A stretch of DNA of 64,000 nucleotides from a virus. Both the position numbers and the translations under genes were made by a program. The notes below the pieces were generated by a model that searched no databases, was not told where the DNA came from, and saw only the letters and a list, made by a program, of their open reading frames with translations. Shown one piece after another: positions 26,658 through 46,143 of the stretch; within the stretch, counting starts at the first letter, position 1; each line of letters starts with the position of its first letter. The DNA lies in IMG/VR virus record IMGVR_UViG_3300017991_004328, positions 23,271 to 87,270 of that record; one strand, given 5' to 3'.

Positions 26658-27491
26658 ATGTACTTAATCACCGGCGCGGAAGGACAACTTGGAAGAGCCT
26701 TTGTTAGCTTATTTTGTCGCAAGGAGATTAGTTTCAAAGCTTTTGGGCACAGAGCCTGGGACATCACAAACGAGCCTCAGACCGCTGAGATTATGGCCCC
26801 CTACCCCGGATGCACCGTCATCAACTGCGCCGCTTACAACTTCGTCGACGGCGCTGAAGAGAATCAAGAGTTAGCAAAAAACATTAATTCTGAAGCTCCC
26901 GCAACCCTTGCGGCCCTGTGCAAACGGCGCGGTGGAAAGCTAATCCATTTCTCGTCGGACTTTGTCTTTTCAAGTAACGACCCTACAGCCACATTTAGTT
27001 GTGATGCCCCTGTCAACCCTATCAACTTCTACGGACTAACAAAAGCGTGGGGCGAGGAAAGGGTAAGGAGCAACCTAAAAAATCATCTTATTGTTCGCAC
27101 GTCCTTTGTTTTTGGGCATGCTCGCACACCCAACATTGTGCACAAGCTAAAAGATCTTTTGGAGCACGAACACAATCGAGGCGGAAAACCAATAATCGCC
27201 ACCCGCCCCATAAGCAAAATGACTTACGCACCGGACTTAGTCAAAGAGACATGGAAGCTGATACAGAAAAACGAGCAAGGGACTTTTCACATTACCAACA
27301 GTGAAACATTTTGCCCGTTTGAATTGGCGTCCTTTCTAGGGGATAAATTAGGTGTCTCGTGCGCAATACCGGGGGAGTATCAAACACGGGCTCCTCGTCC
27401 AATTTGCAGCACGCTAGATGACTGTCCTGATCTTCCTAACTGGATGTCGCGGGTTGCTCTTTTTCTAAAGGAGTCACCCAGGGGGATTTAG
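26658..27491 (+). CDS. RmlD-like dTDP-4-keto-sugar reductase
   Basis: 277 residues from ATG 26658 after GGAG; the start is only 46 bases from the divergent membrane-protein start. Short-chain dehydrogenase fold: nucleotide-binding ITGAEGQLG at the N-terminus, AAYNFVDGAE and HFSSDFVFSS, then the catalytic YGLTK pair. RmlD reduces dTDP-4-keto-rhamnose; the exact substrate here is not defined. Opens the glycan-modification region and is the only plus-strand gene of that block. Confidence 0.8.
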   Translation: MYLITGAEGQLGRAFVSLFCRKEISFKAFGHRAWDITNEPQTAEIMAPYPGCTVINCAAYNFVDGAEENQELAKNINSEAPATLAALCKRRGGKLIHFSSDFVFSSNDPTATFSCDAPVNPINFYGLTKAWGEERVRSNLKNHLIVRTSFVFGHARTPNIVHKLKDLLEHEHNRGGKPIIATRPISKMTYAPDLVKETWKLIQKNEQGTFHITNSETFCPFELASFLGDKLGVSCAIPGEYQTRAPRPICSTLDDCPDLPNWMSRVALFLKESPRGI

Positions 27492-27833
27492 TTTTACAAC
27501 TTCAAACTTTTCGATCTCCCCTTTTTTTACAGGAGATCCGCAAACAGGGCATACGTTGTCATAGACCTCTGTGAAGTCACAATTGCTGGGGCACGTAACA
27601 CGCCGATGGGCCACAATGATTTTTCCCTCGGAATAAAAAATTCCATTAAGAACACCCAACACACCTACAAACCCTTTTCCTGAAGACCAGTGGGGAACCT
27701 TGCATTGAATTGTAGGGTGGTTTACGATCCCTTCGTTACACCACACTTCTTTTTCAAAAAGCTTACTAATCCCTCCTTGGTCCAATTGCAGGGCTTCATT
27801 TAGCAGCGCTGTCGTGTCTTCAATCGTTGGCAT
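27474..27833 (-). CDS. Hypothetical protein with zinc-ribbon C-terminus
   Basis: 119 residues from ATG 27833. C-terminal CPSNC and CPVCGSPVKKGE suggest a zinc ribbon; the N-terminus contains TALLNEALQLDQGGISKLF. Its stop overlaps the convergent rmlD-like gene by 18 bases. No specific function recognised. Confidence 0.5.
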   Translation of the reverse strand: MPTIEDTTALLNEALQLDQGGISKLFEKEVWCNEGIVNHPTIQCKVPHWSSGKGFVGVLGVLNGIFYSEGKIIVAHRRVTCPSNCDFTEVYDNVCPVCGSPVKKGEIEKFEVVKLNPPG

Positions 27834-27864
27834 TAGGAAAGGCTCCGTTTGATAGCTTTTACCT

Positions 27865-28587
27865 TCACAATTCACCCCATTTTCTTTGCGCGTTTACGAT
27901 TGGACCTTTGTTATCTCGCTTGCCTAAAAAACGTGCCTTGTTTTTTAGGATCAGATCATTTCGAAAGTATCCTGGGTTTCTTGCGTGCGGAAGATGGATC
28001 ATACTTGTATCATCCATGTGCATCATCTTCCACGCGGCTAATTTGGCTCTCAGGTTTAGATCTTTGTCTTCGTATCCCCAACCTCGATAAGTCTCGTCAA
28101 ACCCTTTGACGTAGTGCAACCAACTGGTTTTGACTCCCTGACAATTTCCTACGCCGTGCGGTTTCTTCGTAGCCGTTGCTAGTACGGTGTTGCGGTACTG
28201 TCGATACTTCTTCCAATTAAACTGGTGGGGATCAAACTTCGGAGGTGAATCCGCAAAGTCCGTCAAGCACCTTACGAACCCATGTTCAATGTTCTGCATT
28301 ACTTTATGAAAAAAGTTAGGTTGGAAAATTTGGTCTACGTCTGTGATCAAAGTGTAAGGGGTCTGCACTGCCTTAATCCCAATATTCAACGCGCGTGCTT
28401 TGTGGAACAAAGCCGTGTCACGCACCACACGAATTACTTTTCCTTCTGTCTGCAACCTAACTGGCTTTGCAGATCCAAAGTCGACAACAATTAGCCGGGG
28501 CTTAGGATCGCAATAAGCAATCGAGTGTTCGCAGTAAGCTAAGTTTTCGGTGCGGTCTTTTACCGCTATAACAACAGTTAGGTCCAT
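27865..28587 (-). CDS. Glycosyltransferase (GT2/galactosyltransferase-like)
   Basis: 240 residues. GT-A fold: N-terminal LTVVIAVKDRTENLAYC, a TDVDQIF donor/metal motif (about 117-123), and a C-terminal GWGYEDKDLNLRAK segment typical of glycosyltransferase domains with an ED acid. Donor and acceptor are unknown. Starts at ATG 28587, overlapping the sulfotransferase stop; first member of a coupled set of four genes. Confidence 0.75.
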   Translation of the reverse strand: MDLTVVIAVKDRTENLAYCEHSIAYCDPKPRLIVVDFGSAKPVRLQTEGKVIRVVRDTALFHKARALNIGIKAVQTPYTLITDVDQIFQPNFFHKVMQNIEHGFVRCLTDFADSPPKFDPHQFNWKKYRQYRNTVLATATKKPHGVGNCQGVKTSWLHYVKGFDETYRGWGYEDKDLNLRAKLAAWKMMHMDDTSMIHLPHARNPGYFRNDLILKNKARFLGKRDNKGPIVNAQRKWGEL

Positions 28588-29204
28588 GTGTACCCAAACC
28601 TTTTAAAGTCGTCTGAGAACATTCCTGCGACCAAGCTTACTGAACGAGGGGTGTAGTAGGACCGGTAATCTCGATGGGAGGTTTTGTTGGTGTGCGGTAG
28701 AAAAGAGTTTACCTGAACCTTTACTGAGATCGATTTCCACGCACTTCCGATTTCTTCGAGCTTGTAATACTTACTTACGATTTGATTTCCGGCACGGTCC
28801 GACAAATACCACCATTGACCGTTGCGAATCGGGTGCCGGTAGGGATTTGATTTTTCGAACCACTCTACAAATTCAGGAAAGCCTAGCTTGTTAGCAATTT
28901 GATGTCTTGGATCGTGGGTGTCTTTTCGGATGTAAAAATAAGCAGAGACCATCCAATCAAATGGGTTCCTCACTATCCCAAAGCTAAACATCTCTGCCCA
29001 GGAGGCATACCCCATGTGTTGCCTAAGGTCTCTGGCGGGGGCGTGCTTCCACAGTCTAGGATTTGCTTGCTTAGCTACCCCCGGTGGCGGATTGTGTTGG
29101 TAGACCCCGACGGTTGCGTGCTTGCCCAAAACCTTTTTGATACTGGTCCCACCAGTTTTCGGGATGTGGACAAAAACAAATTTTTTGGTGTTGGAAATGA
29201 TCAT
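28578..29204 (-). CDS. Sulfotransferase
   Basis: 208 residues. PAPS-binding 5-prime-phosphosulfate loop HIPKTGGTSIKK (about 13-24) and 3-prime-phosphate motif VRNPFDWMVSAYFYI. This is the Sulfotransfer_2-type signature; the enzyme transfers sulfate from PAPS to a carbohydrate. No PAPS-synthesis genes are visible here, so host PAPS would be needed. It overlaps the GT upstream and the next gene by a few bases. Confidence 0.75.
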   Translation of the reverse strand: MIISNTKKFVFVHIPKTGGTSIKKVLGKHATVGVYQHNPPPGVAKQANPRLWKHAPARDLRQHMGYASWAEMFSFGIVRNPFDWMVSAYFYIRKDTHDPRHQIANKLGFPEFVEWFEKSNPYRHPIRNGQWWYLSDRAGNQIVSKYYKLEEIGSAWKSISVKVQVNSFLPHTNKTSHRDYRSYYTPRSVSLVAGMFSDDFKRFGYTWT

Positions 29205-29881
29205 TTTTTCCAGTGGACCAGTTTAGGGTCAATCCACGTCTCAACCTGTCGTTTATTGAGCGTTGGTTTTTCCTCGATGAACTTACAAATCTGCTTGTAG
29301 GTCTTCCACGGCTTAGTGAACAATTTCTTGAACTCCAAGTCCATGTACTTAGCAAAGCCGTAGTGAGCCCTCACACGCTTCTCGTGCTCTGCCCATGCTC
29401 TGATATGGGTTTTGATAGTTGGAAGGCTTGCATCGCGCTCCACGGGGTTCCTAGAGCCTTTCCACATTCTCTGCGTGCTCTTGGCTTGCGCATCGATGTC
29501 GCGCTGCATACACAACACGTACACTTCAACGTCAGGCACGCCTGCGAGAAAAGCTAAGTGAAGGTATCGCTGGGCCTTGAACGCAACTAAGTTTTTCGCA
29601 AATTCCTTTTCGAGTATTTTTTTGAATTCGTCGGTATGTCTCTTCGCCACCGTTCTCAAGTTACTTATCTCAGGAACGTACTGCAGGTTGTCTCCGTAGA
29701 ACATTCCCCAAACGTTGCGCTGGAATTCTCGAAAAGACCTTAGCTCAAAGTAGCCTTTTGGGTTCATCGGACTTTTACCCGTAAGACTTTTTCCAACGTC
29801 GCAGCCGTGGATCTTAAGCAACCCCATCGTTGCACTAGTGCCCATCCTCCCCAAACGACTTCCCACCAGAACGATTTTCAT
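29201..29881 (-). CDS. Sulfotransferase-like protein
   Basis: 226 residues. Glycine/Ser-rich loop VGSRLGRMGTSATMGLLKIHG near the N-terminus, followed by NPKGYFE and a conserved ELRSFREFQRN segment; shares its general layout with the next gene. The P-loop is less canonical than in the other sulfotransferases. Overlaps both neighbours by four bases, so it is co-translated. Probably acts on glycan or an activated sugar. Confidence 0.6.
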   Translation of the reverse strand: MKIVLVGSRLGRMGTSATMGLLKIHGCDVGKSLTGKSPMNPKGYFELRSFREFQRNVWGMFYGDNLQYVPEISNLRTVAKRHTDEFKKILEKEFAKNLVAFKAQRYLHLAFLAGVPDVEVYVLCMQRDIDAQAKSTQRMWKGSRNPVERDASLPTIKTHIRAWAEHEKRVRAHYGFAKYMDLEFKKLFTKPWKTYKQICKFIEEKPTLNKRQVETWIDPKLVHWKK

Positions 29882-30603
29882 TTTTTACTAAGCTCCTGGA
29901 GCTTGTTGTACAACGGTAAGAGGTTTTCAGGATAGCGCATTGGCTTAGACCGTTTTAGTTTTACGTCAGGAAATTTTCGATCAACATCGGCAATAACGGC
30001 ATCAACCACTTTTTCGATTCCCGCCTTCGTCAGTATCTCGTCAAAGGAGATAAACTTCCAAGGGCGTGTACTGTCGGCATAGTGGTTTAAGATGTTTAGG
30101 TACATGTCTTCCCACACACCAAACAAGTAAGAGGCGTCGTGTTTGTAGTTTGCTAGGTACTTAGCTTTTCTTATCTCCTGCCGCATACTAGAAACCGTAA
30201 TTCCAGGGTTTCGAAAGACGACCAAAACAACGGTGTTGGAGGGAAGATAGGCGTCCCAGGTAGGAAATGTGTACGAAAGCCGGGGGTCCTTCAAACAAAA
30301 CGGTTTGGGTCTTGGTTGCAGGTACTTTCTAATCAGCACCCGCTGTTGATAAGTCGAGTACAGCGGCGTACCTGGAGCTAATCTTTTTAACCACCAATGC
30401 CCCCTCGGTACCTGTCTTTGCGTTGTTTGCTTCAGTATCCCCTCATTGATCTCGTGGTTGACCGTAGAATCCTCGAAGAAGCCTTTCGGATTAGCAGGGC
30501 TCGGCGGAATAAGATTGTCGCCGTGCCAATGCGTTTTGTTCATAAGCCCCGCCAGTAGGCTGCTTCCACTTCTACCGGACCCGAGAACCACGACGTTTTT
30601 CAT
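29878..30603 (-). CDS. Sulfotransferase family protein
   Basis: 241 residues. PAPS loop VLGSGRSGSSLLAGLMN (about 5-21), NPKGFFED, and the 3-prime-phosphate segment VFRNPGITVSSMRQEIRK with CLKDPRLS. The order fits the Sulfotransfer_3 group. Start overlaps the upstream fucosyltransferase gene by four bases. Three such genes in a row are rare in phages and point to a sulfated glycan. Confidence 0.72.
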   Translation of the reverse strand: MKNVVVLGSGRSGSSLLAGLMNKTHWHGDNLIPPSPANPKGFFEDSTVNHEINEGILKQTTQRQVPRGHWWLKRLAPGTPLYSTYQQRVLIRKYLQPRPKPFCLKDPRLSYTFPTWDAYLPSNTVVLVVFRNPGITVSSMRQEIRKAKYLANYKHDASYLFGVWEDMYLNILNHYADSTRPWKFISFDEILTKAGIEKVVDAVIADVDRKFPDVKLKRSKPMRYPENLLPLYNKLQELSKK

Positions 30604-31502
30604 TTTGAGAAAACCTTTTTGAAGCTAGAAATTATTGTTTGCGGGTGCGTCCACCGCGTATGTTGGTTGTTGGGCAACCACGGTTGTGCAAGCATTTTCA
30701 AATAAGCCTCGTCGTTGCTGTCCAAAAAAGCTACCTGATCTAGCAGTGCCCTCAGTACTGACGAGTATCCGCTAATGCCCTTGTGGTAGGGGTGAACAAA
30801 ACTATCTCCGTTGAAGTCTCTGCACACCTCAGGATTACCCCAATAAATAGGAATCGCATTAGCTAGCATCGCATGGTAGATCTTCTCGGTTGTGTAACCG
30901 GGGTAAGCACTGTTCTCAAAGGAGATGACAAACTTGTACGGTTTGAGGTAGTCTATTTTTTCCTGAAAAAAGTTTGGACTGCTGTGCCTGCTGCTGTGCG
31001 GGTCTTTGTACCCACCGATCGGTTTTGCATTGTTCCTGCAGTTACCCGGCGAATCGACTCGCTTGTACTTGTTCAAAACATCGAACATTTGATTTCGAAT
31101 TGTAATGTTGTGGGCGTAGACGAATGCACAAAACTTAGTTTTGCTAGCTAGGATTTTTTCGGGGTCGTAATCCTTGGGTTTGATTAGGTCTTGTCCTGCA
31201 CCATTCTTGACGTAGTTCGGCACCCGAAAGTAATGCGGCTTTTGAATCTCATCTTCGTAGTCAGTGCCCATGCACCAATCACAATTTTTTGTGTCCGGCC
31301 TTACGTTCTCGTTGTTGAAAAATATCCTGGTGTAATTTGTTCTTCCTTTGATCCCCTGCCCAGACAAGACATGTGTTGGGTTAGCCCGATCGTGAATAAA
31401 CTCGAAGTGATCGAAGAGGTATGTCATTTTTCGGAAGAACCTGTTGGCGGTAAGTTGCTTGCTCCACATATTGCGAACGTCGGTGCGGACTCTTGTTTTC
31501 AT
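30600..31502 (-). CDS. GT10 fucosyltransferase-like enzyme
   Basis: 300 residues from ATG 31502. GT10 alpha-1,3/4-fucosyltransferases use GDP-fucose. The signature YKFVISFENS, GYTTEKIYHAMLANAIPIYWG (about 210-240) is clear, with GNPEVCRDF after it; the N-terminal Rossmann half is present. Resembles the second copy at 35319-36227, so two related enzymes exist. GDP-fucose synthesis genes are not in the window. Substrate unknown. Confidence 0.82.
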   Translation of the reverse strand: MKTRVRTDVRNMWSKQLTANRFFRKMTYLFDHFEFIHDRANPTHVLSGQGIKGRTNYTRIFFNNENVRPDTKNCDWCMGTDYEDEIQKPHYFRVPNYVKNGAGQDLIKPKDYDPEKILASKTKFCAFVYAHNITIRNQMFDVLNKYKRVDSPGNCRNNAKPIGGYKDPHSSRHSSPNFFQEKIDYLKPYKFVISFENSAYPGYTTEKIYHAMLANAIPIYWGNPEVCRDFNGDSFVHPYHKGISGYSSVLRALLDQVAFLDSNDEAYLKMLAQPWLPNNQHTRWTHPQTIISSFKKVFSK

Positions 31503-32346
31503 GTCTTTTTCTTTCGTACGCACGCTCAACTGGATCGAGTGCTTTTTCGATCGGGTCTTGCGAAATCGCTTGTGAGAACAGACCATGCGATCGCAGCCAC
31601 TCCCGGAACCTGCCCATTTCCAGTGGCTTTGACGCGGTCCATCCGATTGGCCACCCCATCATCCACTCGCGCAAAGCGGGGTAGACGCCACCAGTCAGTG
31701 ACTTCACACCTCCCTTGTTGCTGCCGTAGAGACTTGCTGTTGGTGTTGGCAATTTGTTCAGCACCGTAGCCAAACCATTGCCCGACCTGGAGGACGCCCC
31801 TTTCTTGTTGTAGTCTCCGCATACTGTCAAGGTTGGCAGCATTTCCAATCCACTCACTGGACACGGCAACGATCCACATTCGTCTTCGCTCATGGTTCGC
31901 ACCGATGTCCCCAGCTCCCAATACCCCGACCCGTCCCACATACCCCATGCTGATAAATCTCTCGACGATTGTGGCCAACCCCTTGGTACGTAGGTGCGGA
32001 CTGTTTTCCGTGAACACAAACGTAGGCCGCACTTCATCAACAATTCTGAGCATTTCGTAGACAAGCCCAGAACGTGATCCGGTAATTCCAGCACCTTGAC
32101 CCGCCGCACTGATATCCTGGCATGGGAATCCTCCGCTAATGACATCAACGTGTCCGCGCCAGGAGCGCCCGTCGAACGTGCGAACGTCGTCCCATATTGG
32201 GAATCGGGGCAAGCACCCATCTCGCTGTCTGCCGAGCAATATCTGCTGGCAGTAGGGATCAAGCTCGACAGCGCAGACGGTGCGCCATCCAAGCAAGTGT
32301 GAGGCCAGCAAGCCGCCTCCTGCCCCTGCAAATAATGCCAGCTCAT
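31381..32346 (-). CDS. Overlapping (second-frame) ORF within the cytosine methyltransferase
   Basis: 321 codons from ATG 32346 in another frame of the Dcm gene. The translation is not random: MLPTLTVCGDYNKKGASSRS, RSGNGLATVLNKLPTPTAS, PALREWMMGWPIGWTASKPL and EMGRFREWLRSHG read like a family of annotated phage proteins I have seen beside or overlapping such methyltransferases. The same DNA simultaneously encodes the complete Dcm. Either a true dual-coding gene or a widely conserved shadow of it. The last 60 codons run beyond the Dcm stop into the GT10 gene. Confidence 0.4.
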   Translation of the reverse strand: MSWHYLQGQEAACWPHTCLDGAPSALSSLIPTASRYCSADSEMGACPDSQYGTTFARSTGAPGADTLMSLAEDSHARISVRRVKVLELPDHVLGLSTKCSELLMKCGLRLCSRKTVRTYVPRGWPQSSRDLSAWGMWDGSGYWELGTSVRTMSEDECGSLPCPVSGLEMLPTLTVCGDYNKKGASSRSGNGLATVLNKLPTPTASLYGSNKGGVKSLTGGVYPALREWMMGWPIGWTASKPLEMGRFREWLRSHGLFSQAISQDPIEKALDPVERAYERKRHENKSPHRRSQYVEQATYRQQVLPKNDIPLRSLRVYSRSG

Positions 32347-32350
32347 TCAC
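31526..32350 (-). CDS. DNA cytosine-5 methyltransferase
   Basis: 274 residues from GTG 32350 (a TTG at 32365 is alternative). Motif I LFAGAGGGLLASHLLG, catalytic GGFPCQDIS (motif IV), TENSPHL (motif VI) and a C-terminal ATGNGQVPGVAAIAW (motif X). All main motifs are present, so activity is likely. Target sequence cannot be read. Clearly GC-richer than the flanking genes, so a recent arrival. No partner restriction enzyme is seen, suggesting self-protection against host restriction. Confidence 0.85.
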   Translation of the reverse strand: MNELALFAGAGGGLLASHLLGWRTVCAVELDPYCQQILLGRQRDGCLPRFPIWDDVRTFDGRSWRGHVDVISGGFPCQDISAAGQGAGITGSRSGLVYEMLRIVDEVRPTFVFTENSPHLRTKGLATIVERFISMGYVGRVGVLGAGDIGANHERRRMWIVAVSSEWIGNAANLDSMRRLQQERGVLQVGQWFGYGAEQIANTNSKSLRQQQGRCEVTDWWRLPRFARVDDGVANRMDRVKATGNGQVPGVAAIAWSVLTSDFARPDRKSTRSS

Positions 32351-32985
32351 GCCTGTCTCGACCAAGAAGGGAATTTACGAACAAAGGGGCTTTCGGTTTT
32401 ATTCAGTTCCAACAGACCCCAGCCCACCAAAGGATGGTAGGGACTGGTCTTTTCTTCGTAACTCGGATAAACAACAGTGTGCGGTACCGTACAACAATCT
32501 TTGATGTAAGCGTAGGAGCAAACCTGGTTGTTGTACCGGTCGAACTGAAATTGCTTTTTACCAGGCACCTGAAAATCGTCGATGAGGATAAACCAAGAAC
32601 GATCACCAACGTGCTTGCAAATCATTCTTACTTCGTCTCTCAAAGGCCATTGAAAGCCCCTGCCGTGCGCGTCTAACCAAAAGACAGCACTATACACGTC
32701 CAACTTTGGCAGGAGCTTAGGAAGGAACTGTTGACTTGTGGCATGGTACAACCGAACATTGTTCATCCCAGCACAATTTTGCTTAGCTCTGGCAAACTGC
32801 TTTTCGTCCGCTTCACAACTGTAGCAAAGCAAAGAAGGGTGGTTGCCTGCTACGTAGTGCAAGGTGGCCCCGATATTAGTTCCTGTCTCCACAAACACTA
32901 GCGTATTCTTGAGCAGGTACGCGGCACCTTGCATTAGGTAGTAATCGCCGTGGAAGCCTACCGGGGGATAAATTTTTCTGTTCAC
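32347..32985 (-). CDS. SAM-dependent methyltransferase-like protein
   Basis: 212 residues. Motif I FVETGTNIGATLHY (about 30-43), followed by CYSCEADEKQF and VFWLDAHG, a layout known from FkbM-adjacent glycan methyltransferases. Substrate unknown, probably a sugar. Overlaps the FkbM gene upstream by four bases, so coupled with it. Confidence 0.6.
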   Translation of the reverse strand: MNRKIYPPVGFHGDYYLMQGAAYLLKNTLVFVETGTNIGATLHYVAGNHPSLLCYSCEADEKQFARAKQNCAGMNNVRLYHATSQQFLPKLLPKLDVYSAVFWLDAHGRGFQWPLRDEVRMICKHVGDRSWFILIDDFQVPGKKQFQFDRYNNQVCSYAYIKDCCTVPHTVVYPSYEEKTSPYHPLVGWGLLELNKTESPFVRKFPSWSRQA

Positions 32986-33695
32986 AACTTTCCTGCCTTC
33001 TTGAGATCGTTGCAGGGGTGGTCGGTGTGGATAAGCTGCGCTCGTGGAATATTTGCGGCGTTGTGAACCTTATCGACGAATCGTGCGGGGGTAAAGAAAA
33101 GGTTGTTTGCAAGCTTTCGTGCTCGATGGTAGCCAAAAGTCTTTAGGTAGACCTCCAGCTCGATTTCTTTTTCCCGGTCGATTGCCTCGCAAACGATAAT
33201 GCTGGGGGCGTACTTTCTAAGGTCAAACCCCTTCAGCACTCTTAGTTCTGCACCCTCCACGTCGATCGTTACCATATCGACCTTAGGAACTTGAGCTTCG
33301 GTAAGAAGAGTGTTCAAACACCTTGCGGGAACCTTTACTTTCTTGTACCCCCGAAAAGCTTTGGGATAAGCTTTTTTGAAGTACTCGCCCATGCTCGGAT
33401 CGATCGTGCTAAGCGTTCCAAGCTCGTTCAAGTAGAAATCCATCTCTTCTTGATCACACTCACAACACGCGCCTGAAAACACCACTGACTTAGGCCGATT
33501 CTTTTTTACGAGTTCTGCGTAGGCCGGGTGCACCTCGACGCAGAGCCCTTGCCAACCAGCCTGCTCGAAGCTGTAGGAGTTAGAAAAGCGCTTACCGTCA
33601 AGCGCCCCCACATCCACAAAAAACCCCTTGTAGCCAGGATCAAACACCGACCAAAGAATTTTGTCTTCGCCGTTTTGGGAGTAGTATTTAGGCAC
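32982..33695 (-). CDS. FkbM family methyltransferase
   Basis: 237 residues from GTG 33695 with AAGGAGATTAGAG upstream, a better start than GTG 33722. Typical FkbM: YYSQNGEDKIL, FFVDVGALDGKRFSNSY (motif I), GLCVEVHP, VDMVTIDVEGAELRVLKG. FkbM enzymes methylate hydroxyl groups of sugars or polyketides. In this neighbourhood, a glycan O-methyltransferase is likely. Confidence 0.82.
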   Translation of the reverse strand: MPKYYSQNGEDKILWSVFDPGYKGFFVDVGALDGKRFSNSYSFEQAGWQGLCVEVHPAYAELVKKNRPKSVVFSGACCECDQEEMDFYLNELGTLSTIDPSMGEYFKKAYPKAFRGYKKVKVPARCLNTLLTEAQVPKVDMVTIDVEGAELRVLKGFDLRKYAPSIIVCEAIDREKEIELEVYLKTFGYHRARKLANNLFFTPARFVDKVHNAANIPRAQLIHTDHPCNDLKKAGKL

Positions 33696-33763
33696 CTCTA
33701 ATCTCCTTTGGTGTGATCTCACGCCATTCAGGAAAAAGTTGCAGAAAGCGATCGACTGCTAAA

Positions 33764-33926: not shown

Positions 33927-34763
33927 TTACTTCTGCAAAGCCTTCCTTTTCATCCGCTCTGCTTTGGCATCTACCCAAATATCCTTCAAAGGAATAAACG
34001 TCGGCTCCTTCTGTCTTCCGAGATTAGCTTGCTTCAATCGCTTAGTTACCTCGTAAGGGTGTTTTCTCGTCGTCTCCCAAATACTTCTACGGTGCCACAA
34101 CAAAAACTTCGAGTAGCCTTTTGCGTGCCACAGGTGGTAGAGCTTGTGATCAAACTTATGCTCTTTACCTAAAATGTGCTTAGCTCGCCAAGCGATGTCA
34201 TTGTCGTTACCGCCCCACCCCAAGTAGTTTTCGTTGTACCCACCGAGGCGATCCCAAAAAAACTTAGCGTTGGCTGCTACGGAATACCCTGCGAACAAAA
34301 GTGTTCCCGACTTCTGACGTTCAGCCTTTTCTAAGTGCTTACGTTCAAGCTTCTTCGTCTGCATTACTTCTGCAGAAGCTTTTGCATCCATAGCCAGCAT
34401 CGTACTCCACGCAATAAAGTAAGGCGCTCTAAAATTTCTTACTGCTTGAAGATACGTCTCCGAACACACCAAATCGATGTCGTAAAACAAGTAACGTTCG
34501 CCGTTGGCAATCTTCGCCCCGACGTTGGCCATCCAGGGTTGGTTGAAGTGGTTTTCTCCAGGGCCTTCGATTTGAATGTACTTGTCGACTGGAAGATCCT
34601 GGTAGTACGGTCCACCTGTTCTTAACCCGCCTAACAAAGCATTGATTTGTTCGACAAGAATAATCTCGTATTCGACGTTTCTGCTTTGCCTAAGAAAATG
34701 GATGCACGTTTGCGCGTGCTCTTGCCTGTTTTTCCCTGTGATGGGAATTATGACCGAGAGCAA
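33927..34763 (-). CDS. Glycosyltransferase family 2-like
   Basis: 278 residues from TTG 34763 with GGAGG six bases upstream; a longer frame to 34856 lacks a ribosome site. GT-A features: LSVIIPITGKNRQEHA, YLFYDIDLVCSE (DxD) and GGYNENYLGWGGNDNDIAWR near residue 195. This arrangement resembles galactosyltransferase-type GT2/GT7 proteins. Substrate unknown. Confidence 0.78.
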   Translation of the reverse strand: MLSVIIPITGKNRQEHAQTCIHFLRQSRNVEYEIILVEQINALLGGLRTGGPYYQDLPVDKYIQIEGPGENHFNQPWMANVGAKIANGERYLFYDIDLVCSETYLQAVRNFRAPYFIAWSTMLAMDAKASAEVMQTKKLERKHLEKAERQKSGTLLFAGYSVAANAKFFWDRLGGYNENYLGWGGNDNDIAWRAKHILGKEHKFDHKLYHLWHAKGYSKFLLWHRRSIWETTRKHPYEVTKRLKQANLGRQKEPTFIPLKDIWVDAKAERMKRKALQK

Positions 34764-34765
34764 GG

Positions 34766-35002
34766 CTACCTCCTCAATAGCTTTGTTTGTACGGTTTTCA
34801 GACCAGTAATCGAAACCTGCTTGTTGTGCCCCTTGTTCAAACAAGGACCAACACACTCACCTTTTGAGTTCACTAAGGTTAGCCCACAACCCTCACAAAG
34901 GACAGAAGCTAAGTAGCCATGTTCAACCAGCCCCACAAAGTCATTTGGTTGGTCTAAATCCGGATACACGTCTTTCATACATTGTTGGCAGTACGATCCC
35001 AT
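34766..35002 (-). CDS. Small zinc-binding protein
   Basis: 78 residues. Cysteine pattern CQQC near the N-terminus, then CEGCGLTLV and GECVGPCLN, a zinc-ribbon arrangement common in small phage proteins. Ends just before the TTG start of the glycosyltransferase, whose ribosome site it overlaps. Function unknown. Confidence 0.6.
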   Translation of the reverse strand: MGSYCQQCMKDVYPDLDQPNDFVGLVEHGYLASVLCEGCGLTLVNSKGECVGPCLNKGHNKQVSITGLKTVQTKLLRR

Positions 35003-36951: not shown

Positions 36952-37647
36952 TTACGCTCCGTATCCTGCATAGGGGTAAAACTTAGGTCGGGCTTTTAGT
37001 ACTTGTTTACAGGGTTTTCCCACCCAAAGCACATAGACAAAGGATCGGTAAATCGGAGGGCACAGAGGCTTACGAGGCTTGGCTCCTTCTTTTATGTACA
37101 GATCGCACATAGAGTTCAATGCCTCGCAATAGGAGTTCGAGGCAGCATCCAAGGGTATGATGTCCTGTGAGTCGGTACTGTTTAGCAGGGGCTTTTCGAT
37201 AAGCAAAGAGTACGGCAGTTTTAGGCTTGCGGCGCAAGCTTGCAAAAAGCTTGTGGTGACCCTTGTTTTGTGACCGCATCCATCTCTCCAATAAAACTTA
37301 GTTCCCTTCTGCTCCAAGTAGTCGTCGAAGTCGAAACTAGGTCCTTCGACGTAAACAAATTCCCGGCTCTTCTTGCAAGCCGTTTTTAGAGCCGTGTAAA
37401 CGTCTTCGTAGCTAGGAAGGTGTTCTAAGACGTGGCAAGCCATCGAAAAGCGCACAGTGCCCTGTAGCTTGTCTAGTTGCTGAATAGGAAGGCACGCTGC
37501 AACGTAACCTGCATCTTTTAGCAATTTGACACGTTCAGGATTCTTGTCGATGCACAAACCAACCTTGCCCCCAAACTTGTGCTTCGCGATTTTGTAACTA
37601 CCCCCGTGACCAGCACCGAGATCAAGAAAATCAACTTGAACTTTCAC
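36952..37647 (-). CDS. Class I SAM methyltransferase
   Basis: 231 residues. Motif I FLDLGAGHGGSYKIA at the N-terminus, acidic CIDKNPERV (motif II), FSMACHVLEHLPSYEDV (motif post-II). This is a Methyltransf_11/12-like domain; C-terminal part is specific to it. Substrate unknown but the context suggests sugar. Starts inside the SpeD-like gene end. Confidence 0.7.
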   Translation of the reverse strand: MKVQVDFLDLGAGHGGSYKIAKHKFGGKVGLCIDKNPERVKLLKDAGYVAACLPIQQLDKLQGTVRFSMACHVLEHLPSYEDVYTALKTACKKSREFVYVEGPSFDFDDYLEQKGTKFYWRDGCGHKTRVTTSFLQACAASLKLPYSLLIEKPLLNSTDSQDIIPLDAASNSYCEALNSMCDLYIKEGAKPRKPLCPPIYRSFVYVLWVGKPCKQVLKARPKFYPYAGYGA

Positions 37648-37978
37648 ACGACCCCCTAATTACAGAACGTGACTCGAAATAAGTCGGTTTGTACAACAAA
37701 ATTAGTTTAGCCAAAATAACCTCGGGATTTTCAAACCCGTAGATATCAAGGCACGCCGCTTTGTTCTCAGGCCACGTGTGGATCGTAATGTGCTTGTGGT
37801 CGTCTAGTAAGATGGCGGACATTCCTTGAGGCTCAAATTTGCGTACCAGCAATTCTGCGTCTAAAAGGTTTAGTTCTTTCAAAATGCATTCATCGTCAAG
37901 ATCATGTTCTGAGATTAGGTTCACGATACAATGGGCCTTTTCCATAAGCTCCTCGGGGATTGAATAGCATTTACCCAA
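37631..37978 (-). CDS. SpeD-like protein lacking the pyruvoyl serine
   Basis: 115 residues. The strand LDDHKHITIHTWPENKAACLD matches the SpeD core ESH-I-IHTWPE motif, which normally self-cleaves at Glu-Ser to make the pyruvoyl cofactor. Here the expected Glu-Ser is His61-Lys62, so no pyruvoyl group can form. The remaining His63, His67, Trp69 and Glu71 are kept. Decarboxylase activity is therefore unlikely; a ligand-binding or regulatory role is possible. Next to a methyltransferase that would also bind SAM. Confidence 0.65.
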   Translation of the reverse strand: MGKCYSIPEELMEKAHCIVNLISEHDLDDECILKELNLLDAELLVRKFEPQGMSAILLDDHKHITIHTWPENKAACLDIYGFENPEVILAKLILLYKPTYFESRSVIRGSCESSS

Positions 37979-39436: not shown

Positions 39437-39460
39437 GGCTAATTTACTGTTTTTCAAAAA
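39410..39460. repeat. Direct repeat overlapping the promoter
   Basis: Two identical 18-base copies of TTTACTGTTTTTCAAAAA, starting at 39410 and 39443 (33 bases apart, three helical turns). Each carries TTTTTCAAAAA. Spacing and overlap with the promoter suggest a repressor or activator site. Confidence 0.55.
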
Positions 39461-39474
39461 GCCCTTTTGCCCTA

Positions 39475-40169
39475 TCAAGTAAGTTTTTCAAACCTCAAAT
39501 TTGGGAATTCTTTTTTCAACCGCGCTACCGCTATTTTGAGGTAGCTTTTTTCTAGGTCAACTCCGATAACTCTGTGACCATTTTTCAAAGCCGCTAGTGC
39601 TGTTGTCCCGGAACCCAAAAACGGATCAAATACAATTGCGTTAGGAGGAGACACCAACCGAACTAAATAATCAACCAGTGCTAGAGGCTTGACTGTCGGG
39701 TGGGTGTTTATTTCTCCACGTTCTTTTTTCGACGCTTTCGCTGCATAAAAAAACCTGGCAGCAGACCCTATCGAGGTATCTGTTTTTGAGGTTTCGTAAT
39801 TAGTCGGATCGCCATTGTTGTTGAAATGCCGTGCACCTTGGGTTCTGTTCCACGTCCCGCCCTTCGCGTCCGGGAATAATTCTTTTACCTCTTTGCTACC
39901 GTCGTGCAAAAAGTTAGCTGGCCAACGACCGTCTTTTTTGTATTCCATCGTACTGTTCTGCTCGTGGGCTTTTTTTCTTGGCTAGCGCTTTAGACACGTT
40001 CAAGGACTTAGGAAAACCCGAGGAGTACACCCATTGCATTTGATCACGTATTTCCCACGTATGGAGGATCCGTCACAATTGCGTCTACTGAATTTTCTTT
40101 TAGGGCTCTTGCTACTCTCAGACTGTCTGCGACAAACAGATTTATTTTTTTAGCGTGTATTTTGAGCAT
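39475..40169 (-). pseudogene. Broken N6/N4 DNA methyltransferase
   Basis: Three frames hold parts of one enzyme. ATG 40169 opens KINLFVADSLRVARALKEN, SVDAIVTDPPYV, then a stop. A second frame gives EIRDQMQWVYSSGFPKSLNV, a third (39948-39475) gives GRWPANFLHDGSKEV, THPTVKPLALVDYLVRL, FDPFLGSGTTALAAL. DPPY (motif IV) and FxGxG (motif I) are both kept. The region of about 55-60 codons expected between DPPY and EIRDQ is missing, so an internal deletion plus another frame change inactivated it. The C-terminal piece alone (157 residues) lacks the catalytic site. Confidence 0.7.
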
Positions 40170-40357: not shown

Positions 40358-40360
40358 AGG

Positions 40361-41281
40361 CTACTCCAAAAACTTAGTAAGTGATTGCTCGAACCGATCC
40401 ACAACGTTCTGCCACTTGAATTTAGGGTGCTGCGCTGTTTTGAGCCCATGCGCTTTTAGAGCCCGTCTAAGCGACTTGTCTGCCAAAAGCTTAGCAACCC
40501 CTTTCCAAATCCCTTGAGGGCTTCTGGGGACAACTACGGCGTTGCGGTTGTTCCTTACAAAGTCTCGGCTTCCCCCGTCGTCAGTACACACCACCGGGCA
40601 CCCACAACTCATCGCTTCGAGGATCGGAAAATTAAATCCCTCTACCTGGCATGCCGACACAAAAAGCGTGCTTCTGTTGTACAGATGCCACATTTTTTCT
40701 TGTGGTGTGTTTAGCCCGTGCATTTTTAGTAGCTTTACTGATTTTCCTAAAAGTGCTCCCTCAACCAAGTGTGTACCCTTCCAAGGGCGAGGACTACCGT
40801 AGTACAACACATCGAAGTCTTTTGGCACTGTCGGATCGTGTCGAAAGTGTTCTGTGTTGATCCCCCCTGGAATAATCGGAATCTCTTGCTTAGTTTTGGT
40901 GTGCTTTTTTATGTACTGCTCGACGTACCTAGAATTTGCAAAGTAAGTTAGTCCTGGTTGCTGCAATCCGGCCAGGGGTACCGCAGGGTTTTTGTACTCG
41001 GCTTCTGCAGCCAGCACCCAAAACACTTTTAGCTTAGCTTTGGAGCGCAGACAAAGTCTGTACTGCTCTGCGAGGTTGAAAAGGGTCACATCGTACGTCT
41101 CGGTCTTCAAGCGGCTCATATCGAACGTAGGGGCTTGTGACGGCATCCAGGTACAAGGCTTCCCCTTCGGGGTTAGCAATTCTACCTCGTGACCTTTTTT
41201 CAGCATGCGATTGCTAATCTCCACGATTCTTCGGATACCGCCAACGCACAAAAGGTGAGGTTCGATAAAAGCGATTCTCAT
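40361..41281 (-). CDS. Glycosyltransferase family 4-like
   Basis: 306 residues, GT-B fold. N-terminal IAFIEPHLLCVGGIRRI (acceptor domain), middle YGSPRPWKG (donor phosphate contact), and EGFNFPILEAMSCGCPVVC with the E-x7-E donor site (about 210-229). Retaining GT4 enzymes use NDP-sugars. Directly follows the next gene upstream (41282) with no gap. Sugar unknown. Confidence 0.8.
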   Translation of the reverse strand: MRIAFIEPHLLCVGGIRRIVEISNRMLKKGHEVELLTPKGKPCTWMPSQAPTFDMSRLKTETYDVTLFNLAEQYRLCLRSKAKLKVFWVLAAEAEYKNPAVPLAGLQQPGLTYFANSRYVEQYIKKHTKTKQEIPIIPGGINTEHFRHDPTVPKDFDVLYYGSPRPWKGTHLVEGALLGKSVKLLKMHGLNTPQEKMWHLYNRSTLFVSACQVEGFNFPILEAMSCGCPVVCTDDGGSRDFVRNNRNAVVVPRSPQGIWKGVAKLLADKSLRRALKAHGLKTAQHPKFKWQNVVDRFEQSLTKFLE

Positions 41282-42313
41282 TTACTCCCCCGTTATCTTC
41301 TTCACGGTGTTTACGAAACGTGCCCCTTGTTTGCTCCACTTGAAGCTTTGAGCAAGGATCATCCCATTTTTAGTAATTTGTTCTCTTAGGGAACGCTCGT
41401 TGATCAAGCGTCCGATCTTTGCCATCAAATCTTTTTTCGTCCCGTCGGACACCAGGCAGTTTTTTCCGGACACTAAGTAATCTTCAAGACCTTTGTTTTT
41501 CGTCCACACTACGGGAACACCGCAAGCCATCGCCTCTAACGGAGGCAATCCGAATCCTTCGTTCTTACTCGTTGCGACCCACACCTTGCACTGGTTGTAG
41601 ATTAGCGGCAAAAAAGAAGTTGGGGGATCAATAAAAATAGCGTACTGGCAGTGCATATTCTGAAATAATTCTTTTTTGGCGTACTCAACCCGTGCCGCAA
41701 CGAGCATCGCTTTGTACTTACGTTCTCGCTTAGCTCCTTGGCTTGCAGCCATACTAAGGGCTGCCAAAAGAACGTCGCTGTTTTTATCCTCAGAAGAGTG
41801 CAACAATCCCCCTACAGGGATTTGGCAACTAAATAACTTCGGCAGGGGTCGGAATATCTCGTCGACGGCGGGTGGGATCACAAAGACTTTCTCGTGATTC
41901 GCTTTTAAGGCAAGTCTAGCTAACCAAGAACTCGTTGCAATCACTGCGTCGTAAGGATAGCTTAGGTTTCTGTTCTCTTTTTCTTCGTTCTGTGTTCCGT
42001 ACCCCTGCAACAAAAGAATGTGCTTTGCGTTGTCTTTCTTCAGATCCTTCACTTCTTCGGGATCCCCATCAAGGTAATCCACAATCACATCGGCATTTTT
42101 CAGGTGCTTTTTTCTTGCGTCTTTTTCTACCACCAAATTGCAGGTAATTTCTTTTAGCTTTGGCGTGCACATCCAATAAGTGGGATTGAGCTTTTTTGCT
42201 ACGATCGCCACCCGGTTGTCTTTACTAATCCTGTTTACGTACTCTGCAAACCTAATAATTACTTTTGTCCCCCCTGAAACTTTCGTGTGTGGAGTAAGAA
42301 AAACGTATCGCAT
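41282..42313 (-). CDS. Glycosyltransferase family 4-like
   Basis: 343 residues, GT-B fold: YVFLTPHTKVSGGTKVIIRF at the N-terminus, GLLHSSEDKNSDVLL in the middle, NEGFGLPPLEAMACGVPVVW as the donor site. It abuts its neighbours (42314 and 41281), so it is translationally coupled. Substrate unknown. Confidence 0.82.
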   Translation of the reverse strand: MRYVFLTPHTKVSGGTKVIIRFAEYVNRISKDNRVAIVAKKLNPTYWMCTPKLKEITCNLVVEKDARKKHLKNADVIVDYLDGDPEEVKDLKKDNAKHILLLQGYGTQNEEKENRNLSYPYDAVIATSSWLARLALKANHEKVFVIPPAVDEIFRPLPKLFSCQIPVGGLLHSSEDKNSDVLLAALSMAASQGAKRERKYKAMLVAARVEYAKKELFQNMHCQYAIFIDPPTSFLPLIYNQCKVWVATSKNEGFGLPPLEAMACGVPVVWTKNKGLEDYLVSGKNCLVSDGTKKDLMAKIGRLINERSLREQITKNGMILAQSFKWSKQGARFVNTVKKITGE

Positions 42314-43198
42314 CTAGCCAACCCTCGAAAATATTCTCTTTGTATTTGTTTCTTCTTTTAGGCACGCAGGCGAAAACCAGATAGCTTCTTGATTTTTGGT
42401 CTTGGTGCTATTGTACGTGCTGCGAACACGAGACCACCGCACGACATCCCACCCTGGCAGGTCATAATCTCCGATATGCCCGCATAGCGCAACACGCAGC
42501 CGATCCTGCTCTGTTTCACGACACCACGCCTCGCAATGTGCAGCGACAGGCACCTGTTTTGAATATAGCCTCTCGAACCCCCTGTATGGCGGATCGAGAA
42601 ACACCGCGCAAATACCGCCGCCCTCTAGTCCATAGCGCGTGTTGACACATCGGTCCCATGCGCCGTGCAAAACTCTAACGCGCTCTAAGCGGGCGCTTAG
42701 CTCTGCGACCAATTGCGCACCGCCAGATGTACTCTGAACACCCATGCCTATGTTGCTGATATGCGGGATCGGCCCAAGGCGTCGACCTGTTATTTTGTCG
42801 CACCAGCCTTTTCCAATCCACGAGCACTGCCCCCACAACCACCAGCCCGCGATCCTAGGGTCCCCTGGCCACTCTGGGTCCAAGAGCCTGTCTTGCAGAT
42901 CAGCCACCCTCTCTGGATCAGTCAACCACCAGTGCCTTGCCGACTGATCAATGTGACTCACCGGGTAGTCAGCTTCGGCCCATGTGGCATCTGGCTGATA
43001 TTTCACGGCGCGCCAGAAGTTAGCTATGTATAGATTCAGATCACAGATCACCTCAAGATTTGCCTGGCGGGGGGCGTTGAGCAGCATTGCTGCCGATCCA
43101 CAAAACGGCTCAATGTAATTTTTGACTCGCCCGAATCGTTGCCACACCAACTTAGCTACGCGGGACTTGCCGCCGAAATACGGAAATGGTGACTTCAC
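42314..43198 (-). CDS. D12-class N6-adenine methyltransferase (Dam-like)
   Basis: 294 residues. Motif I PFPYFGGKSRVAKLVW at the N-terminus, FCGSAAMLLN, and catalytic DPPYRGFERLYS (about 200-211); target recognition region between. The composition is GC-richer than the surrounding glycosyltransferase genes, suggesting a recent insertion. It overlaps the GT upstream by four bases (43195-43198), so inserted cleanly into the operon. Probably protects phage DNA against host restriction. Confidence 0.82.
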   Translation of the reverse strand: MKSPFPYFGGKSRVAKLVWQRFGRVKNYIEPFCGSAAMLLNAPRQANLEVICDLNLYIANFWRAVKYQPDATWAEADYPVSHIDQSARHWWLTDPERVADLQDRLLDPEWPGDPRIAGWWLWGQCSWIGKGWCDKITGRRLGPIPHISNIGMGVQSTSGGAQLVAELSARLERVRVLHGAWDRCVNTRYGLEGGGICAVFLDPPYRGFERLYSKQVPVAAHCEAWCRETEQDRLRVALCGHIGDYDLPGWDVVRWSRVRSTYNSTKTKNQEAIWFSPACLKEETNTKRIFSRVG

Positions 43199-43818
43199 CT
43201 TCGCTCCGAGTGGTAAAGTTGCTTAGCTTTCATTCGTTCCTTTTCCACATCCATACCTGAGACCCGCACAGAAGCCTCTCCTTCGTGCCAAACAAACGAT
43301 CCCTGGGACCAATAGCAATTTAGCCCCAAAGCTGTTCTAGAGCGGTCTATGAAGTCTGACTCTTGTCCGTAGAACGTGTAACGCTCATCGAACTTATTTA
43401 GCGCGTGCCAAAGCTGCCTTTCGAAGACGAGGCAAAAGCCAGAAATCGGATCCGTCATTTTTTTGTACTTGCCGCTTCTTTTCTTAGCCTCTTCAGGAGT
43501 AGGGATTTTTTTTTGCGGGGAATGGCAATTGTTGGTACTAGGCCCGACGAATCCACAGTCTTTGAACTTATCAAAAGCTTCGAGCATAAGTTCCAACCAA
43601 CCTGAGGTTACTTGGGTATCGGAGTTTAGCAAGCAAATGTAGTCCGCTTCGCTTTTGCGGATCAGTTTATTCCACACCTGTGTCAACGTAAGCTTATTTT
43701 TCTTGTTGTCGGTGTATGTCAGCGTAAACGGCACCGAGGTATGATTCAGAACGCTTTTCAAGCACTGGCTTTCCATCTCGGGTAATCCGTAGCCGACAAC
43801 AATGATCTGCGTTTTCAT
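43195..43818 (-). CDS. Glycosyltransferase family 2
   Basis: 207 residues from ATG 43818. GT-A: TQIIVVGYGLPEMESQCL, YICLLNSDTQVTSGW (DxD-like SDT), and TFYGQESDFIDRSR with an ED acid. Inverting GT2 likely; donor unknown. Overlaps its neighbour at 43818 and the D12 methyltransferase. Confidence 0.8.
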   Translation of the reverse strand: MKTQIIVVGYGLPEMESQCLKSVLNHTSVPFTLTYTDNKKNKLTLTQVWNKLIRKSEADYICLLNSDTQVTSGWLELMLEAFDKFKDCGFVGPSTNNCHSPQKKIPTPEEAKKRSGKYKKMTDPISGFCLVFERQLWHALNKFDERYTFYGQESDFIDRSRTALGLNCYWSQGSFVWHEGEASVRVSGMDVEKERMKAKQLYHSERR

Positions 43819-44030
43819 TAGCCATCCCACGTCGAGCTTGTTCTAACGTTTTTTCGGCACAACAACCACGCCACACAGCTAGGACACAGATCCATCGAGT
43901 CCAGTTTTTCATTTCCAAAACTAATGTTTTCTATTCTTACCCAGCCTTCAGGAAGGTTCTCTTCGGTACTAGGTACCTGCTGTGAGTAACCACAGTCGCT
44001 ACGATCGCAGGTGATTACGTACTTTTTCAT
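43818..44030 (-). CDS. Small putative zinc-binding protein
   Basis: 70 residues with CDRSDC near the N-terminus and LCPSCVAWLLC near the end; probably a zinc knuckle. The stop overlaps the GT2 start. No function recognised. Confidence 0.5.
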   Translation of the reverse strand: MKKYVITCDRSDCGYSQQVPSTEENLPEGWVRIENISFGNEKLDSMDLCPSCVAWLLCRKNVRTSSTWDG

Positions 44031-44033
44031 TTC

Positions 44034-44591: not shown

Positions 44592-44781
44592 AAGATGCCT
44601 CTCTGGAGCAATTGGAGGCCCTCAGGGCCTCTTGAAAGAACTGACCCAGGGCTTGTATCGGATTTTCGTACGAAGCCTCTGTAACCCACTCTGAGCCTTC
44701 CAAACGTTGAAAGTGCAAAACCTCGCCCTCAGCGATTACGCGGGAAGTGTTTAGCTTGCAGAGGATTTTGGGCTGATCCAA
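44533..44781 (-). CDS. Hypothetical protein
   Basis: 82 residues from TTG 44781 with AAGGGG about eight bases upstream. Mixed alpha/beta (KILCKLNTSRVIAEGEVLHF). No family. Overlaps both neighbours by about 55 bases, typical of this cluster. Confidence 0.45.
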   Translation of the reverse strand: MDQPKILCKLNTSRVIAEGEVLHFQRLEGSEWVTEASYENPIQALGQFFQEALRASNCSREASYVKRISLTHSDEEIPDRKP

Positions 44782-45136
44782 TTTCTAACCCCTTCTGGTT
44801 CGGCATTACCAAACCGCTACAGTAAGCTTTCCAGCGTTGCACAGAGTCTTGGTATTGAGTCCACAGCTCGGGTCCTTGTTCGCCGACCTTGCAAATAATC
44901 TCCAAAGCTGTGGGCAAGACCCTGATTTGTTCTTGTGCGGACTTATCCGAGTGCAACGGTTGGATCAACAACGCTGCTCCTCCGTCTCTGGGAACCTCAG
45001 CGTAGAGCTTAGGGTACACCACCCGCAGGGGTTGGATATTTCCGGCTAAGAAATTGTCATAGGGTTTTTGATAAATCGTTCCGAGCATTCTTTGGTTCGG
45101 CAAATAAATCATGACAAACAGATCTGCGTGTTTCAT
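44729..45136 (-). CDS. Hypothetical protein
   Basis: 135 residues from ATG 45136, which shares bases with the stop of the GT4 gene (TAATG) and follows GAGGAAAAG. Alpha/beta domain with LLIQPLHSDKSAQEQIRVLP. No family recognised; the three genes 45136-44034 are probably a small operon unit within the glycan region. Confidence 0.5.
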   Translation of the reverse strand: MKHADLFVMIYLPNQRMLGTIYQKPYDNFLAGNIQPLRVVYPKLYAEVPRDGGAALLIQPLHSDKSAQEQIRVLPTALEIICKVGEQGPELWTQYQDSVQRWKAYCSGLVMPNQKGLEIGSAQNPLQAKHFPRNR

Positions 45137-46143
45137 TACTTTTCCTCCAACACGGTGTCGATGGCTTTTTGCCACAAAGCGTAGTTCTTATTTAGGTCGT
45201 ATTTTTCTTCGACTAACTTAGTTGCATTTTTGAGAACTTCTTTTCTCTCTTGTTCGTTGTTCAGCACGTACCGAACCAGCTCGTACCAATCCTTGCGTTG
45301 CTTAGCAAGGTATCCGTCAACACCGTGGGTGATTGTTTGTTGGTAAGGTCCAAAGTCACTGGCAATCGTTACGATGCCCTGTGCTGTGTATTCTAGAAAT
45401 TTCAAGTTCGACTTAGACAGATTGAATTTACAAGGCACCAACGGAGCTAAACCCACCGTTGCGTCTGTTTGGCTAAGTACGACGTGGAAGCCTTTGAACT
45501 CCACAGGCGGTACCTGGTAGATCCCTTTCATTGGTGCGTAGAAGACCTTCGGAAAACAATCCCCGTCTTTTTTCAGTTGCTGCATAGCAGGCTCGATAAG
45601 CGCTAGGTCTTTTTTGTGCGTGTGCGATCCTTGCCAAAGCACAACGGGTTTGACCGAGTTGTCAGGCTTAGGTGTGAACAACTCAAACGGTACCGAGTTA
45701 GGAAGCACAAAGACGTTGTCGTTGTACTGCCGATAAACCTCTGCTAAGTCCTCGGTGGTAACAAACACCGCGTCAACTAAGTTACAGAAGCGTTTGACGT
45801 AGTCTTGCACCTGAGGATTTCCCAGTTCTTTTTTTGCAGGGTTCCAATCAGGGATCGAGAACAGATCATCGTCTATCTCGTACACCAATTTTGTTCTGGC
45901 TTTCCCAGGCCTGTTCTTAGTTTTTATCCTTTGTGCAGTCTCGTAGACCTTAGGCATGTACTGACGTTGGAAGATTGCTAGATCAAACCCTCCAACTTGT
46001 CGTTCGTCCATAACCCCTGTAACCGAGATCATGTACTCCTTCGAGTGTTTTGCTAATGTTGAAAAGGGAAGGTGAATTCTGTAGAACCAACAAGCTCCAG
46101 AGTCACCTCGATAAGCGATTATTTCTGTAGGTTGTTTTTCCAT
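45136..46143 (-). CDS. Glycosyltransferase family 4-like
   Basis: 335 residues, GT-B type: GDSGACWFYRIHLPFSTLAK start, YEIDDDLFSIPDW, VVLWQGSHTHKKDLALIEPA, and a donor region SNLKFLEYTAQGIVTIASD. More divergent than the other two GT4-like genes. First gene of the leftward operon facing the 1.4-kb non-coding region; ribosome site is weak (GAAAGATGT). Confidence 0.75.
   Translation of the reverse strand: MEKQPTEIIAYRGDSGACWFYRIHLPFSTLAKHSKEYMISVTGVMDERQVGGFDLAIFQRQYMPKVYETAQRIKTKNRPGKARTKLVYEIDDDLFSIPDWNPAKKELGNPQVQDYVKRFCNLVDAVFVTTEDLAEVYRQYNDNVFVLPNSVPFELFTPKPDNSVKPVVLWQGSHTHKKDLALIEPAMQQLKKDGDCFPKVFYAPMKGIYQVPPVEFKGFHVVLSQTDATVGLAPLVPCKFNLSKSNLKFLEYTAQGIVTIASDFGPYQQTITHGVDGYLAKQRKDWYELVRYVLNNEQERKEVLKNATKLVEEKYDLNKNYALWQKAIDTVLEEK

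Follow-up and report, generated by a model that had tools for sequence, protein, structure and literature searches.

A conserved phage gene set that should make a fucosylated, O-methylated and sulfated glycan with its own fucose and rhamnose donors

The DNA analyzed here (the window) comprises 64,000 nucleotides, bases 23271-87270 of the 87,270-base virus record IMGVR_UViG_3300017991_004328, from a phage known from metagenomes alone. We found in this phage about 30 conserved genes that together should make a fucosylated, O-methylated and sulfated glycan, with fucose and rhamnose donors of its own. The sulfation would be unusual in a phage. The pathway appears to be cytosolic and virion proteins are its most likely acceptor, a reading that we hold with middling confidence. 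A second record, IMGVR_UViG_3300018080_000117 (G001, 136,432 bases), is identical to the window record across all 39.3 kb compared (window 24692-64000) and adds 49 kb beyond it. It was handled as the same virus, and no independent evidence was drawn from it. Because terminase, portal, a sheath-like protein and baseplate J are encoded, the window is part of a contractile-tailed phage.

An earlier note on this DNA, made from the letters alone, had read positions 26658-46143 as a pathway for such a glycan. When the region was compared with Pfam gene by gene, all enzyme classes named there were present. Two GT10 proteins, three sulfotransferase-like proteins, RmlD, FkbM and two more methyltransferases had Pfam matches, some of them weak, and the nucleotide-sugar dehydrogenase placed at 56076 was recovered as well. 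The nearly uniform gene direction also held, with the minus strand used throughout except for RmlD and the dehydrogenase. The genes are as follows (GT, glycosyltransferase; ST, sulfotransferase; MT, methyltransferase; percentages are identities to orthologues in the relative G006, described below).

26658..27491, plus strand: RmlD, predicted dTDP-4-dehydrorhamnose reductase (PF04321, 1.5e-52; TIGR01214, 163 bits, equivalog cut-off of 224 not reached)
27865..28587, minus strand: GT2a, GT2-family glycosyltransferase (PF00535, 6e-11; 50%, same position)
28578..29204, minus strand: ST1, Sulfotransfer_2 sulfotransferase (PF03567, 2.1e-15, over the Pfam cut-off)
29201..29881, minus strand: ST2, Sulfotransfer_3 sulfotransferase-like (PF13469, 3e-5, under the curated cut-off)
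29878..30603, minus strand: ST3, Sulfotransfer_3 sulfotransferase-like (PF13469, 1e-3, under the curated cut-off; 43%)
30600..31502, minus strand, start set at 31502: GT10a, alpha-1,3/4-fucosyltransferase-like (PF00852, 2e-16, and FucT_N)
32347..32985, minus strand: MT35, putative O-methyltransferase (PF20553, 0.005, weak; 48%)
32982..33722, minus strand: FkbM-family methyltransferase (PF05050, 4.5e-18; TIGR01444 over cut-off)
33927..34856, minus strand: GT7, galactosyltransferase/GT7-C-like glycosyltransferase (PF02709, 5e-7; 56%)
35319..36227, minus strand, start set at 36227: GT10b, fucosyltransferase-like (PF00852, 9e-16; 44%)
36952..37647, minus strand: MT23, class I methyltransferase (PF13489/PF08241, weak, 0.005/0.014; 36%)
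40361..41281, minus strand: GT4a glycosyltransferase (PF00534, 2.6e-19; 52%)
41282..42313, minus strand: GT4b glycosyltransferase (PF00534, 8.6e-20; 36%)
43195..43830, minus strand: GT2b glycosyltransferase (PF00535, 9e-8; 54%)
45136..46143, minus strand: GT4c glycosyltransferase (PF00534, 2.4e-8; 47%)
56076..57305, plus strand: UDP-glucose/GDP-mannose-type dehydrogenase, whose sequence does not settle the substrate (PF03721, 2e-37; TIGR03026, 387 bits, over the subfamily cut-off)

The weak points of this inventory are ST2, ST3, MT35 and MT23, whose Pfam scores lie under the curated cut-offs. Several genes overlap by 4-10 bases (28578/28587, 29201/29204, 29878/29881, 30600/30603 and 32982/32985), and these overlaps indicate a translationally coupled operon.

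The donor pathways extend beyond the window, where the following genes were located (coordinates refer to the stretches L016, L017 and L234).

L016:16673-17224: RmlC
L016:17249-18187: RmlB
L016:18978-19742: RmlA
L017:446-1432: CgeB-like glycosyltransferase
L017:1429-2400: Gmd (TIGR01472, 410 bits, cut-off 415)
L017:2367-2807: cupin, WbuC-like
L017:2804-3886: DegT sugar aminotransferase, with perosamine synthetases among its matches
L017:3814-4428: methyltransferase (MT11)
L017:4425-5165 and 5178-5975: GT2 glycosyltransferases (GT2c, GT2d)
L017:9176-10135: GT9-like glycosyltransferase
L234:727-1674: Fcl (NF047922, 432 bits, cut-off 500; 53% identical to the Fcl of cyanophage S-SKS1 by tblastn)

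RmlA, RmlB and RmlC outside the window join RmlD inside it, so that the dTDP-L-rhamnose set is complete; the window RmlD was the sole strong match to its family among 11 viruses compared. Each of the four Rml proteins best matches its own family, and RmlC alone among them reaches the NCBIfam equivalog cut-off. Likewise, the GDP-L-fucose set is complete since both Gmd and Fcl are encoded. Thus, putative pathways to GDP-L-fucose and dTDP-L-rhamnose were both identified in this phage, and GDP-L-fucose is the expected donor for the two GT10 enzymes.

To assess these two enzymes, we checked the catalytic residues E95, R195, E249 and K250 of Helicobacter pylori FucT. In the alignment of GT10a to the H. 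pylori alpha-1,3-fucosyltransferase 2nzw, on which the first two positions were counted, E95 and R195 are in register and the TEK motif is kept. The corresponding GT10a residues (E65, R136, E206 and K207) are invariant in four phage GT10s, and one G006 GT10 paralogue has R at the last catalytic position. GT10a and GT10b are about 40% identical, and both keep the catalytic residues of a fucosyltransferase.

The sulfotransferases were examined in the same way for motifs that bind 3'-phosphoadenosine-5'-phosphosulfate (PAPS). ST1 contains a 5'-PSB-type motif (HIPKTGGTS) and a 3'-PB-type motif (VRNPFDWMVSAY), and ST3 contains LGSGRSGSS and VFRNPGITVSS; the G006 orthologues of both have the same forms. 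ST2 matches ST3 locally (47% over 45 residues) and is an extra copy, given that G006 has one ST3-type gene. By sequence, all three proteins keep motifs of the PAPS-binding type. The moderately confident structure model of ST3 (pLDDT 68) had sulfotransferases as its best Foldseek matches (E 2.5e-4). The ST1 model was poor (pLDDT 61) and gave no Foldseek match below 1e-3, but its top 18 matches were all sulfotransferases. The predicted folds offer modest evidence for sulfotransferases.

The earlier note had suggested searching for homologues with the same gene order. Such a search led to IMGVR_UViG_3300015370_000011 (G006, 121 kb), a distant relative (terminase 48%, portal 57% and sheath 54% identical). 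Twenty module genes, including both GT10s and two sulfotransferases, are co-linear in one G006 block at 36-64% identity, in the order GT4c, GT2b, GT4b, GT4a, MT23, GT10b, GT7, FkbM, MT35, GT10a, ST3, ST1, GT2a, CgeB-like glycosyltransferase, Gmd, cupin, DegT, MT11, GT2c, GT2d. The phage departs from the G006 arrangement at one point. Its thirteen genes from GT4c to GT2a occupy the minus strand at window 46143-27865, and the remaining seven are found on the plus strand some 38 kb further along the record, past the window end. The median identity of the module to G006 was 47%, compared to 39% for other shared genes (Mann-Whitney p 0.006), a rough comparison in which the other set consisted of open reading frames (ORFs) with a BLAST match. 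The module is at least as conserved as other shared genes.

This conservation bears on the possibility that the genes are a loose island of horizontally acquired sugar genes without a single product. Phage glycosyltransferase islands are often mosaic, and DNA methyltransferases, SpeD and ST2 occur here yet lie outside the G006 block. However, twenty genes are in unbroken order in a relative with no more than 48-57% identity in terminase, portal and sheath, the module is no less conserved than the rest, and 4-base overlaps join its genes. We consider a loose island very improbable. Since the G006 block is free of them, the DNA methyltransferases, SpeD and ST2 look like insertions or additions. 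Apart from ST2, these interspersed genes were absent from the earlier note:

31526..32365, minus strand: cytosine-C5 DNA methyltransferase-like ORF, probable interloper (GGFPCQDIS motif by reading; not at this position in G006)
37631..37978, minus strand: S-adenosylmethionine (AdoMet) decarboxylase, SpeD-like (PF02675, 7e-12; no G006 match)
39475..39948, minus strand: N4/N6 DNA methyltransferase, probable interloper (PF01555, 1.4e-21)
42314..43198, minus strand: D12-class adenine DNA methyltransferase, probable interloper (PF02086, 2.3e-10)

The SpeD-like gene overlaps a methyltransferase gene. The three interspersed DNA methyltransferases could also be taken to mean that the phage DNA holds a modified base, to which the glycosyltransferases and sulfotransferases add their groups. 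Decoration of this kind has been put forward for certain phages (Iyer et al. 2013, as cited in PMC10829341). Yet G006 keeps its glycan block without the interrupting methyltransferases, and FkbM, GT10 and RmlABCD are oligosaccharide enzymes. Furthermore, no member of the thymidylate synthase/dCMP-hydroxymethylase family (PF00303) was found in G001 or G006, which makes DNA glycosylation unlikely; TET/JBP and the nucleotide kinases of such systems were not part of this search. Taken together, we regard base decoration as extremely improbable.

Just upstream of the operon, window 46180-46800 is a non-coding run of many strong hairpins, with RNA fold z-scores of -6.9 (minus strand) and -5.9 (plus strand) and no match in Rfam. 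The upstream stretch tested in G006 had moderate structure only (z -3.1).

The genes and their motifs, the shared gene order and the full set of donor pathway genes were seen directly; from them we infer the activities, the order of steps, the acceptor and the purpose as follows. Gmd and Fcl would convert host GDP-mannose to GDP-L-fucose, and RmlA, B, C and D would convert glucose-1-phosphate to dTDP-L-rhamnose. The nucleotide-sugar dehydrogenase should supply a uronic acid donor, and the DegT aminotransferase with the cupin should supply an amino-sugar donor. Some twelve soluble glycosyltransferases, among them the two GT10 enzymes, would build the oligosaccharide, FkbM and the other methyltransferases would O-methylate it, and two or three PAPS-dependent sulfotransferases would sulfate it. 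APS kinase (APS, adenosine-5'-phosphosulfate) was not found on the phage, so PAPS must come from the host. The acceptor would most likely be a virion protein, or several, to which the glycan would be added in the cytoplasm while particles are made, and the resulting charged, capped coat could shield or re-target the particle.

A hydropathy scan revealed no convincing transmembrane segment in the module proteins. Among the called ORFs of the 136-kb record, which may be incomplete, a simple scan of this kind yielded no candidate for a flippase, polymerase, priming transferase or Gtr-type multi-span protein. Both results favour assembly on a cytosolic acceptor. The glycan operon has the same direction as the terminase, portal and sheath genes and ends beside them; because its direction leads to the terminase and on to the portal and sheath genes, we prefer a virion protein as acceptor. 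The other candidate is the host envelope, where the enzymes would build or cap lipopolysaccharide (LPS), capsule or S-layer glycans and so prevent superinfection, conceal receptors or shield the infected cell. Among the genes, RmlABCD and Gmd/Fcl are well known from O-antigen synthesis, and a GT9/heptosyltransferase-like gene is present at L017:9176-10135. The nearest isolate precedents, S-SKS1 (Gmd-Fcl-GT10) and S-SCSM1, have cyanophage loci of a kind usually read as modifying host LPS or cell wall (PMC9602691). On the other hand, if the scan is right about the missing membrane proteins, all export steps would have to be borrowed from the host. We therefore favour virion proteins, with about equal weight for and against, over the host envelope, which is possible but distinctly less probable.

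Several points weigh against a virion glycan made in this way. Besides the precedents just mentioned and the need for host PAPS, lipid-linked precursors of the host could also be substrates of the soluble transferases. The scores of RmlA, RmlB, RmlD, Gmd and Fcl stay under their NCBIfam equivalog cut-offs, as those of ST2 and ST3 do for Pfam, and the virion glycan is a prediction from genes. Moreover, RmlB, RmlC, RmlD and Fcl were not found in the G006 sequence examined, so that the donor supply either varies among relatives or sits in missing parts; a third relative (L007) has RmlC and RmlB near its terminase. The biosynthetic reading of the genes is supported, more strongly than the earlier note could show, by Gmd with Fcl, RmlABCD, intact GT10 and sulfotransferase motifs, and a gene order kept in a distant relative.

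We also looked for sulfotransferase and GT10 genes in other viruses. They lie within 10 kb of each other in eight unrelated viral contigs, in six of which they occupy neighbouring slots on the same strand (expectation about 20% per contig; binomial p about 0.001). Around 43 cellular GT10 loci, sulfotransferases of these types were absent from the nearest 10 kb in every case. The pairing was rejected as a general rule: PF03567 was missing in 15 other GT10-bearing IMG/VR records and in S-SKS1, and both genes occur in a minority of loci. In INPHARED, LR756508 (484 kb) alone matches both ST1 and GT10a. This phage has three Sulfotransfer_2-type genes, GT25 and GT10 in a row, then homologues of two genes of the phage studied here, a beta-propeller gene and MT35 (the latter 31% identical, two genes past GT10), then an Fcl-like gene and Gmd, all within about 10 kb. 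Unlike the phage studied here, to which it is unrelated, it has no strong RmlD match and carries several GT29 sialyltransferase-like genes (best tested PF00777, 8e-32), NeuB (5e-68) and a CMP-sugar synthase-like gene at 8061-26846 of LR756508.1 300000-340000 (L021); its glycans are possibly sialylated.

The terminase of the phage studied here has its nearest matches in Virus Rctr197k and jumbo phages (31%). Naming a host from the GT10 relatives failed, as the cellular matches (43 bacterial loci) do not exceed 38% identity where the match is long and are spread over Bacteroidota, Verrucomicrobiota, Proteobacteria and others. Shine-Dalgarno-like motifs precede 47% of ATG starts (background 8%), which argues against a typical Bacteroidota host and names no host. 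Further observations concern other genes. At window 2240-2480 there are two tRNA-Leu genes and an odd tRNA candidate whose anticodon has two bases, and a transposase (phrog_506, 2e-88) lies within the structural gene region at 13602-14867. A protein encoded among the structural genes (L004:8438-10321) has Laminin_G_3/concanavalin A-like lectin domains and is a possible carbohydrate-binding virion protein. Next to the DNA polymerase gene, L016:52-705 encodes a long PEEEEPEEEE repeat with a lysine-rich tail.

Phage fucose pathways are already known. Gmd occurs in S-SKS1 and S-SCSM1 (Synechococcus) and in P-SSM2 (Prochlorococcus), and S-SKS1 and S-SCSM1 have Fcl and fucosyltransferases as well as multiple glycosyltransferases. 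Identities to our phage are 48-51% for Gmd and 32% for the S-SKS1 GT10. However, these cyanophages belong to a different lineage and have no gene-order match; S-SKS1 lacks Sulfotransfer_2, and no sulfotransferase is mentioned for S-SCSM1 (PMC9602691). A sulfotransferase in a glycan cluster is known from the Megavirinae Moumouvirus australiensis and Cotonvirus japonicus, where it was proposed to sulfate virion sugars alongside viral sugar-nucleotide pathways and glycosyltransferases (PMC10117803). These eukaryotic giant viruses differ in having their own bifunctional sulfate adenylyltransferase/APS kinase and UDP-L-QuiNAc/diNAcBac sugars, and the authors ask for experimental validation. Chloroviruses, which infect algae, also encode glycosyltransferases that act on the capsid protein, and their virions are proven to contain glycoprotein (PMC5408694, PMC7826918). 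As far as we searched, a conserved phage module with full donor pathways for fucose and rhamnose together with fucosyltransferases, methyltransferases and sulfotransferases has not been described. To our knowledge, sulfation is not part of the chlorovirus capsid N-glycan machinery.

The earlier note had called sulfation in phage glycosylation scarcely described. This is true of experiments: the function of sulfotransferases in phages has been called unclear (PMC10580990), and we found nothing direct in the literature on phage virion sulfation. It is not true of genes, as ST1-type genes are common in viral contigs, with at least 510 related stretches. The module ties these common viral genes to fucosyltransferases and complete donor pathways and thereby provides a concrete substrate hypothesis, the sulfation of a fucose-containing glycan. 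We tentatively suggest that virus-made protein-linked glycans, both sulfated and fucosylated, might be present on the particles of this lineage and also on those of huge phages unrelated to it, LR756508 among them. Prokaryotic viruses would then have a counterpart of sulfated Lewis-type glycans, and a sulfotransferase gene beside a GT10 gene would be its recurring core. Should the glycan be on the host, the module would be a self-contained surface-remodelling kit. Should it be on the virion, current views of surface charge, adsorption, decoy binding and clearance in phages would change.

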